Assembly: GCF_029946165.1 (NCBI RefSeq)
Contig: NZ_JAQSDZ010000010.1
Location: 62,001-126,000 of the forward strand
Source: Methylotenera sp.
GTDB taxonomy: Bacteria; Pseudomonadota; Gammaproteobacteria; Burkholderiales; Methylophilaceae
Direction of reading: 5' to 3'
DNA: 64,000 nt
A model generated the notes under the pieces. That model saw only the letters and a program-made list of their open reading frames with translations. It searched no databases and was not told the origin of the DNA. Positions 21,971 to 24,973 of the stretch are shown in pieces. The position numbers and the translations under genes are program-made. How positions within the stretch are numbered: position 1 is the stretch's first letter; each line of letters starts with the position of its first letter.

Positions 21971-22558
21971 TTATAAACTTCCTTTGGTGGATGGCATAAT
22001 GCCTGCCATGCGTGAGTCTTGCTCAACAGCCATTCGCAACGCACGTCCAAAAGCTTTAAAAATCGTTTCGGCTTGATGATGAGCGTTATGACCCTTTAGG
22101 TTATCTATATGCAAAGTGACATTGGCGTGATTGACAAAACCTTGAAAGAACTCATGGATTAAATCAACATCGAATTCACCAATTGAAGCACGCGTGAATA
22201 CACAGCCAAACTCCAAGCCTGGTCGTCCAGAAATATCTAGCACTACACGCGACAAAGCCTCATCCAGCGGAACATAAGCGTGCCCATAACGACGTATGCC
22301 TTTTTTATCACCTATCGCTTTAGCAAAGGCTTGTCCAATTGTTATTCCAATATCTTCTACAGTGTGATGGGCATCAATATGCAAATCACCTTTAGCGTTG
22401 ACGCTAATATCCATCATGCCGTGACGGGCGATTTGGTCTAGCATATGATCTAAAAAACCTAAACCAGTACTAAATTGTGAAACGCCAGTGCCATCTAAAT
22501 TAATGGCGACTGTGATTTGTGTTTCTAAGGTATTTCTAACTACTTCCGCAGATCGCAT
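21971..22558 (-). CDS. hisB: Imidazoleglycerol-phosphate dehydratase
   Basis: Dehydrates IGP to imidazole acetol phosphate. It has 195 residues, the dehydratase domain only. No HisN-type phosphatase domain is attached, unlike the bifunctional E. coli HisB, so the histidinol-phosphate phosphatase must be encoded elsewhere. The metal-binding motifs [11 protein letters not shown] and [19 protein letters not shown] are intact. A 264-base gap with a terminator separates it from hps upstream. Confidence 0.97.
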
Positions 22559-22822: not shown

Positions 22823-23677
22823 TTACTGTGCTGCTTCTGGTGCTGCTTCAACTGGTGCAGCTTCTTCAACAGGTGCAGCTTCCATTGGAGCAACTTCAGC
22901 TGGTTCAGTTGCAACTGGAGCATCTGCAGCTGGAACTTCTGTAGCATCTGGTTTTTTAGCACTAAGTAAAGCAAACAATATTACTAAAACAACAGCACCG
23001 ATGATCCATGGTAAGAATTTCTTAGCACCACCAGCACTAGCATTAGCACCGTGAGCGATTGCTGTAATTTCAGCAGCAGCGGCAGCAGGGTCAGCAGCAC
23101 CGTAAATAGCAGCACCTGCAACAATGATAGTTGCGCCAGCATCTTTAACTTGTTGTGTTGTTGCAGCTTTAACGCCACCAGCAACTGAAATATCAACGCC
23201 TAGGTTCAAAGCAGCAACCATACCTAAGTCATTGAATGGTGTTTGACCAGCAGCCTGCTGATCTAAACCAGTATGAACGCCAATGATGTGCGCGCCTAAT
23301 TTAGCCACTTCAATAGTACGTGCTTTTTTATCAGCTACGTTGATCAAATCAACTTGAGCTTTTTTGCCGTATTTGTTAGCAACATCGATTACGCCTTTGA
23401 TTGTACCGATATCAGCAGTACCTAGAACTGTACAGATGTCAGCACCAGCTTTGTAGAATGGCTCAGCTTCATAGAAACCAGCATCCATTGTTTTCAAGTC
23501 AACCAAAATTTTGTTGTTTGGGAACTTAGCGCGTAAAACTTCTAACAATTTGATACCATTATGCTTAATGCAAGGTGTACCAATTTCCAAAATATCTACG
23601 TGTGGAGCAACTTTGGTTGCTAAGGCGACGGTACCGTCGAAATCTAATGAATCTAATGCCATTTGGGTTTGAGCCAT
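22823..23677 (-). CDS. hps: 3-hexulose-6-phosphate synthase with C-terminal transmembrane helix and Ala/Pro/Glu tail
   Basis: Condenses formaldehyde with ribulose 5-phosphate, the entry step of the ribulose monophosphate cycle in methylotrophs. Residues 1 to about 210 form the full OMP-decarboxylase-superfamily barrel, with the D60-x-K62-x-x-D65 motif and the phosphate-binding AGGVK near 167. Canonical HPS ends near residue 210. Here a Gly/Ala linker, a 20-residue hydrophobic segment (221-240, FLPWIIGAVVLVILFALLSA), two lysines and a 42-residue acidic Ala/Pro/Glu tail follow, 284 residues in all. A strong GGAGGA ribosome site precedes the ATG. It is inserted between hisC and hisB, with its own leader and terminator. 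The hydrophobic helix strongly suggests membrane attachment; this is inferred. Confidence 0.93.
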   Translation of the reverse strand: MAQTQMALDSLDFDGTVALATKVAPHVDILEIGTPCIKHNGIKLLEVLRAKFPNNKILVDLKTMDAGFYEAEPFYKAGADICTVLGTADIGTIKGVIDVANKYGKKAQVDLINVADKKARTIEVAKLGAHIIGVHTGLDQQAAGQTPFNDLGMVAALNLGVDISVAGGVKAATTQQVKDAGATIIVAGAAIYGAADPAAAAAEITAIAHGANASAGGAKKFLPWIIGAVVLVILFALLSAKKPDATEVPAADAPVATEPAEVAPMEAAPVEEAAPVEAAPEAAQ

Positions 23678-23905: not shown

Positions 23906-24973
23906 TTAAGTGCCTAAAAGTAGTTCTGTTAATGTATCGATGAGTGCTTTTGACTGAGCATCAGTTCCAATTGTAATGCGTAGGTAAGGAGCTACCCGAC
24001 TTGGTGATTTAAAATGACGCACAATAATATTTTTTTGACGCAGCAATGCGGACAGTTCTGCGCCATCCTTCACTTGATGTTTAGCAAAAATAAAGTTGGC
24101 GCCTGATGGCAATACATCAAAACCCAACTTGATTAAGTCTTTAACCAATGCCTCACGTGTTGCAATGACTTTGCTGCATGTTTCTTCAAAATACGCAGTA
24201 TCTTGCATCGCCGCAACTGCGCCAGCAGAAGCAAAGCGGTCTATAGGGTAAGAGTTAAAGCTATCTTTCACGCGTATCAGCGCTTCGATTAAATCTGGAT
24301 GACCCAACGCGTACCCAACGCGCAAACCTGCCAATGAGCGAGCTTTAGACAATGTATGCGTTACCAATAAGTTGGGATAAGTGTTAATCAATCCCACGGC
24401 AGATTCAGTACCGAAATCGACGTACGCTTCATCAATGACCACAACTGACTGTGTATTCTTTTTTAGCAACTTTTCAATGGTAGCTAACGATAGTGGAATA
24501 CCTGTAGGTGCATTCGGATTAGGAAATATAATGCCGCCATTGGGCTGATAGTAATCGTCGATGTTAATTGAAAAATCAGCTGCCAAAGGGATTGTTTGAT
24601 ATTCAATGTCATACAAACCGCAATATACTGGGTAAAAGCTGTAGGTAATATCAGGAAATAATAATGGTCGGCTATGTTTTAATAGCGCTTGAAACACATG
24701 CGCTAATACTTCATCTGAACCATTACCAACAAACACTTGATTGGCGCTCAAATGATGCACTTCCGCAATCGCGGCCTTCAGTGCGTCCGAGTTAGGGTCT
24801 GGATATAAACGTAATGAATCTGCCGCTTCAAGCTTAAGCGCCTCAATTACCTTAGGGCTAGGTCCATAAGGGTTCTCGTTGGTATTAAGTTTGACTAGGT
24901 TATCTAACTTAGGCTGCTCACCTGGTACATAAGGCGTAAGCTTATGCACCACATCACTCCAAAATTTACTCAT
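23906..24973 (-). CDS. hisC: Histidinol-phosphate aminotransferase
   Basis: PLP-dependent aminotransferase of class I/II, 355 residues, within the normal range. It shows [11 protein letters not shown] near the N-terminus, [10 protein letters not shown], the NPNAPTG substrate motif, VIDEAYVDF, and the PLP lysine in [17 protein letters not shown]. It lies 6 bases behind hisD; the 228-base gap after it leads to hps rather than directly to hisB. Confidence 0.96.

Follow-up and report, generated by a model that had tools for sequence, protein, structure and literature searches.

The hps Gene of the Histidine Cluster

The window, as we call the whole analyzed stretch of 64,000 nucleotides, is part of contig 10 in a 2.94-Mb genome of Methylotenera sp. 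On its minus strand, an open reading frame with an ATG start runs from 23677 down to 22823 and encodes a protein of 284 amino acids plus stop; the plus strand is rich in stop codons at this place. The protein matches the curated model TIGR03128 over residues 5–206 (240.4 bits, cut-off 200), and the closest solved sequence, 3ajx, is a 3-hexulose-6-phosphate synthase (HPS). The model match, an alignment and an AlphaFold model delimit a catalytic barrel at residues 1–208 (23054..23677, minus strand). It contains DxKxxD, the suprafamily motif, at residues 60–65, and D60, K62, and D65 are unchanged throughout the 26 aligned rows. A complete HPS barrel with this motif had been described in a first-pass annotation and is borne out. 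Judged from its sequence, the gene product is a 3-hexulose-6-phosphate synthase, predicted to condense formaldehyde with ribulose 5-phosphate.

The gene (hps) lies between two his genes on the same strand, hisC upstream (23906..24973; TIGR01141, 303 bits, cut-off 277) and hisB downstream (21971..22558; NF002106, 367 bits, cut-off 283), with gaps of 228 and 264 bases; a scan for promoters and terminators around hps gave nothing above chance. A second hps of the same genome, on contig 16, ends at 210 residues, is 91% identical over residues 1–211, and adjoins genes for transaldolase and 6-phospho-3-hexuloisomerase (phi), for which the reference proteins were taken from a close relative (L243).

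A Predicted Membrane Helix With an Acidic Tail

The C-terminal extension of the window HPS begins with a linker (residues 209–220, HGANASAGGAKK; 23018..23053, minus strand), which has a pLDDT below 50 at residues 215–217 and is rich in Gly, Ser, and Ala in relatives. It is followed by a predicted transmembrane helix at residues 221–240 (22958..23017, minus strand). Residues 221–239 form the top 19-residue Kyte-Doolittle window of the protein with a mean of 2.66, and the best window outside the extension, at residue 151 and thus before residue 205, reaches 1.61; the helix is called from hydropathy. When the 77-residue extension was shuffled, an equally hydrophobic window arose in 11 of 20,000 shuffles. 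The AlphaFold model (mean pLDDT 81), built on an alignment of the window protein with 25 sequences from titled Methylophilaceae records (26 in total), has a helix at residues 217–239. The hydrophobic segment that had been read at 221–240 is therefore upheld by both hydropathy and model. A simplified insertion-energy estimate, with an approximate scale and not relied upon here, gave medians of −0.8 for the helix vs. +3.0 for the barrel.

Beyond residue 240, the protein ends in a tail of 44 residues (241–284; 22826..22957, minus strand) with 15 Ala, 8 Pro, 8 Glu, and a net charge of −8, which is predicted to be disordered (pLDDT below 50 at 242–284). The first-pass annotation had recognized its acidic, low-complexity character correctly, but had put its length at 42 residues. 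An N-terminal hydrophobic signal was not found in the window HPS, where windows starting at residues 1–24 reach at most 0.88. Classical tail-anchored proteins have one helix near the C-terminus, no N-terminal signal and at most about 30 residues after the helix. The window HPS shares with them the single transmembrane helix on the C-terminal side, as judged by hydropathy, and the absence of an N-terminal signal, but with 44 residues after residue 240 it exceeds their limit for the end of the chain. Searched against its own genome, the 77-residue extension returned only itself and two matches at E-values of 0.54 and 0.97.

Three Forms of HPS in the Methylophilaceae

In a search of 150 Methylophilaceae genomes, 86 of which were searched a second time, matches were found in 143, including all 109 with at least 90% completeness and at most 5% contamination. 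The survey set comprises 236 full-length hps copies from 132 genomes, with starts fixed by alignment to the window protein, without start-codon calling. Eighteen genomes lie outside it, namely seven with no match, seven small g13/g15 genomes whose single copy is outside the set (G034, G044, G046, G054, G063, G065, G072; open frames of 210–220 residues) and four in which there were just fragments (G024, G028, G064, G082). The count excludes partial copies, two of which, from G024 and G008, have the amphipathic motif described below as their end.

A C-terminal extension, which the first-pass annotation had proposed to look for in the family, is present on 105 of the 236 copies and takes two forms. 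The transmembrane form with acidic tail, as in the window, accounts for 50 copies of 269–351 residues in five genera. In all 50 the hydrophobic window begins at residue 220–223 and the helix starts with LPW or LPY; 31–110 residues follow the best 19-residue window, with net charges of −4 to −21. An LVGAAKDATG-type motif ends 4 of the 50 acidic tails (L008, L030, L222, L237; two genera) and is absent from the others; the titled records L050 and L095 likewise show this tail end. Methylophilus methylotrophus has the transmembrane form as well, in its titled record L067. The amphipathic form (55 copies of 224–230 residues in 18 genera) has a short C-terminal end, typically GLFGWLKKLF, which starts 8–11 residues past residue 205 wherever this was measured (49 copies). 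The other 131 copies are bare and have 209–214 residues. In six genomes of the genera g6, g11, and g18, the ordinary bare copy is accompanied by another bare hps, which is divergent and has 64–67% identity to the window barrel (L141, L196, L197, L198, L200, L203).

Counted by genome (n = 132), 47 carry a transmembrane and a bare copy, 43 an amphipathic and a bare copy, 28 bare copies only, six an amphipathic and two bare copies, five an amphipathic copy only, two a transmembrane copy only, and one all three forms. Of the bare-only genomes, 25 belong to the small-genome groups g13/g15; the remainder are G130, G145, and G008, of which G145 also holds a transmembrane copy and G008 an amphipathic fragment. 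Most of the methanol-using Methylophilaceae examined thus have two hps copies, one of them with a predicted membrane tail.

One Locus for Both Extensions

The extended and the bare copies are strictly separated by gene neighborhood. Of the 105 extended copies, 101 have one or more his genes next to them (50/50 transmembrane, 51/55 amphipathic), vs. none of the 131 bare copies. For 94 extended copies, hisC was seen upstream as well as hisB downstream, for seven one of the two and for four neither; one of these four is in G041, close to where a 17-kb contig begins, and the others are in G018, G011, and G031, where the extended copies sit on a divergent barrel lineage. Conversely, phi adjoins all 131 bare copies and no extended copy (0/105), and transaldolase adjoins 125 of the bare copies and one of the extended. 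Two copies found later and kept outside the count fit the same partition: one in G145, of the transmembrane form and with a stretch of undetermined bases within the barrel, lies between hisC and hisB, and one in G061, which is bare, lies between transaldolase and phi. A frameshift or assembly artefact as source of the extension was ruled out, because no bare full-length copy (0/131) lies beside his genes and the hydrophobic window has its fixed position at residues 220–223 in 50 of 50 copies.

The passages of PMC4109929 on these genes describe two hps genes in Methylophilaceae, about 90% identical within a genome, of which one lies in a histidine cluster while the other is linked to HPI and transaldolase. 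The arrangement found here is the same; the extensions are what the present analysis adds. In the main text of that paper the words transmembrane, C-terminal, and extension are absent, and its passages on the two genes give no difference in localization. The two loci are thus already published, and in the openly licensed literature searched, no mention of an anchored HPS or of the extensions in Methylophilaceae was found.

Probable Barrel Exchange and Constraint on the Extensions

The two extensions have no six-residue word in common outside the Gly/Ala linker. In the transmembrane form, the 17-residue helix core has a pN/pS of 0.205 and the barrel one of 0.046 (191 pairs), so that the core evolves faster than the barrel, which counts against an anchoring function. 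Its differences are mostly exchanges between nonpolar residues (6733 of 7451 pairwise), and the 17 distinct cores contain D, E, K, R, N, Q, or H in 0 of 49 copies; one of the 50 copies (G070) was left out of this core analysis, as the anchor motif is absent from its barrel. The terminal decamer of the amphipathic form is under constraint, with a pN/pS of 0.137 vs. 0.106 for the barrel (1176 pairs, 49 copies), six of the 55 copies being omitted for their divergent barrels. The decamer has a median hydrophobic moment of 0.63 (55 copies), reached by a median of 2.8% of shuffles, and its FGW core is near-invariant. The amphipathic end is modeled at low confidence (pLDDT 48–54) and presumably resembles membrane-active peptides. 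An amphipathic search pattern occurred once per genome in 42 of 58 genomes, and a reversed control pattern gave a single match, in G069. Among the 16 genomes lacking a match, seven have the amphipathic form in a variant outside the pattern (G003, G006, G014, G018, G021, G023, G137). All 42 places are at hps, and a wider use of the amphipathic end as a tag for further proteins was thus not seen.

One genome, G021 (L176), has both extended forms in tandem in the order hisC, transmembrane-form HPS, amphipathic-form HPS, hisB. The two barrels are identical at 618 of 618 nucleotides and divergence starts just past them, pointing to a recent duplication or conversion. When third codon positions were compared in 91 genomes, the extended copy was nearer to the other hps copy of its own genome than to any same-locus copy from another genus in 36, a pattern to which a shared codon preference could contribute; the remaining 55 genomes do not show it. 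A quick barrel tree with many weak branches (126 of the 236 copies and three outgroup rows) groups both copies of a genus together in some genera (g2 with g16, g3, g8). The three form labels need 17 changes on this tree, or 18 with the outgroup as a fourth label vs. 52.1 for shuffled labels, and only three changes are needed between amphipathic and transmembrane labels. Gene conversion confined to the barrel is the simplest reading of barrels that appear to have been exchanged without their tails. The amphipathic form is probably the older one, since the divergent barrel lineage likewise bears amphipathic ends; the root of the tree comes from the three outgroup rows.

Probable Placement of HPS at the Inner Membrane

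The extended HPS is best read as a C-terminally membrane-anchored paralogue with a cytoplasmic barrel and a periplasmic tail, which captures formaldehyde at the inner membrane beside a soluble HPS, a reading that we hold to be reasonably probable. From the comparison of sequences, we strongly infer the membrane association itself, and we infer the orientation, the trapping of formaldehyde, and the division of labor. A membrane-bound HPS had already been proposed for the window and is well supported by one locus that carries two membrane-type C-termini never found on the other copy, although the transmembrane form proposed at the time is only one of the two. A position close to methanol dehydrogenase, which had been suggested along with it, would be a further possibility. 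That two different membrane-type tags occupy one locus points to membrane placement as the selected trait.

Ribulose 5-phosphate is cytosolic, and as a hydrophobic N-terminal signal is also lacking, the barrel should face the cytoplasm and would stay alongside this substrate. With a cytoplasmic barrel and a single 20-residue helix that would span the inner membrane once, the acidic tail should be periplasmic. Counts of Lys and Arg in the eight residues flanking the helix (means of 1.48 before and 1.50 after, 50 copies) speak neither for nor against this topology; acidic residues occur in these flanks only on the after side. PQQ alcohol dehydrogenases are periplasmic, and therefore formaldehyde should enter via the inner membrane, where an HPS fixed to it would meet it first. 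Such an enzyme would line the cytoplasmic side of the membrane as a capture layer and join incoming formaldehyde to ribulose 5-phosphate, and formaldehyde from the periplasmic PQQ methanol dehydrogenases would be caught before DNA and protein are exposed to it. The remaining formaldehyde would be dealt with in the cytosol by the bare HPS, whose gene lies with those for the isomerase and transaldolase. A PQQ alcohol dehydrogenase above the family cut-off is present in all eight Methylophilaceae genomes searched (G000 and four small genomes included) and in none of 14 control genomes.

In most of the genera examined, a short amphipathic helix would do the same job from the same locus instead of the transmembrane helix. 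We see about even chances that formaldehyde is fixed in two places in most genera other than the small-genome ones, with the tether swapped between amphipathic and transmembrane forms and the barrels kept alike by gene conversion. The small-genome groups g13/g15 retain only the bare HPS, and since a PQQ alcohol dehydrogenase is present in the four of their genomes tested, anchoring is dispensable there, which limits the claim that it is needed. In G130, a 91%-complete genome from a transmembrane-form genus, the bare copy alone was seen.

The same extensions could instead be partner-binding tags that dock HPS on a specific membrane protein (a channel, a respiratory complex or a formaldehyde-producing enzyme), so that proximity to the partner rather than membrane attachment as such is selected. 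The near-invariant FGW core and the LPW/LPY start look stricter than lipid binding alone requires, and the common tail end of four transmembrane copies also fits such a role. One binding site would hardly accept both extensions, however, because they have no common word outside the linker, and most changes in the transmembrane core replace one nonpolar residue by another; we regard a partner tag as unlikely.

An extension that promotes HPS oligomers or condensates for self-assembly or storage, with no membrane contact, would agree with the disordered acidic tail of the AlphaFold model. It seems very improbable, as the amphipathic form has no such tail and a core free of charged and strongly polar residues makes a poor soluble module. 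Least probable of all is a neutral fusion to the C-terminus of a redundant second HPS, retained by chance. The wide range of tail lengths, the lack of an extended copy in the small-genome relatives, and the greater change accepted by the transmembrane core than by the barrel would be expected of it; the strict partition by locus, the constraint on both tags, and the barrels that look swapped between loci in several genomes while the tails do not speak against it.

Methylotrophs with a periplasmic methanol dehydrogenase have to protect their cytoplasm from formaldehyde, and HPS is commonly regarded as soluble. The enzyme itself is ordinary; what would be unusual is its predicted placement and the swap of tethers at a fixed locus. 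If membrane anchoring of HPS holds across the family, it offers a direct genetic handle in the cultured Methylophilus methylotrophus, where the tail could be taken off and the enzyme kept. It would also be a natural design for engineered methanol users; enzymes have been fused artificially so that HPS sits close to formaldehyde, as parts of PMC8879981 describe.

Known Systems and Relatives Outside the Family

Compared to soluble HPS (HxlA/HPS, TIGR03128, 3ajx), the window HPS has the same entire catalytic barrel with DxKxxD, but differs by its membrane-type C-terminus and by its place alone in a his cluster rather than next to phi. Ferenci, Strom and Quayle reportedly found in 1974 that HPS activity of Methylococcus capsulatus is partly particulate or membrane-associated, a similar association in a different organism. 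MinD and FtsA are tethered by a C-terminal amphipathic helix, and the amphipathic-form HPS resembles them, by description, in a short conserved amphipathic end on a soluble protein; in HPS, in contrast, related genomes have a transmembrane helix in its place.

Outside the Methylophilaceae, HPS relatives at an E-value of 1e-25 were found in 2 of 398 genomes of a phylum sample and 5 of 369 of a class sample. Neither extension was seen on the outside-family HPS sequences read, among which methanotrophs are thinly sampled. In two of these sequences (L341, L349), HPS runs on into an apparent isomerase, as judged by eye. The genome G674, which has a running-on HPS of this kind (by eye), contains in addition two HPS-like stretches across several frames about 6.7 kb apart (L346, L348). 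Another outside-family genome has a tandem block (L387:2699-15685, G782:C1) with three hps-phi copies spaced exactly 5,189 bases apart. The block also contains tkt and a gene for a 458-residue protein with TGVxKYLxKQ-like repeats, two whole copies being seen of each. The repeat protein, which has no Pfam match above cut-off and no solved relative at an E-value of 0.1, may serve the pathway enzymes as a scaffold.
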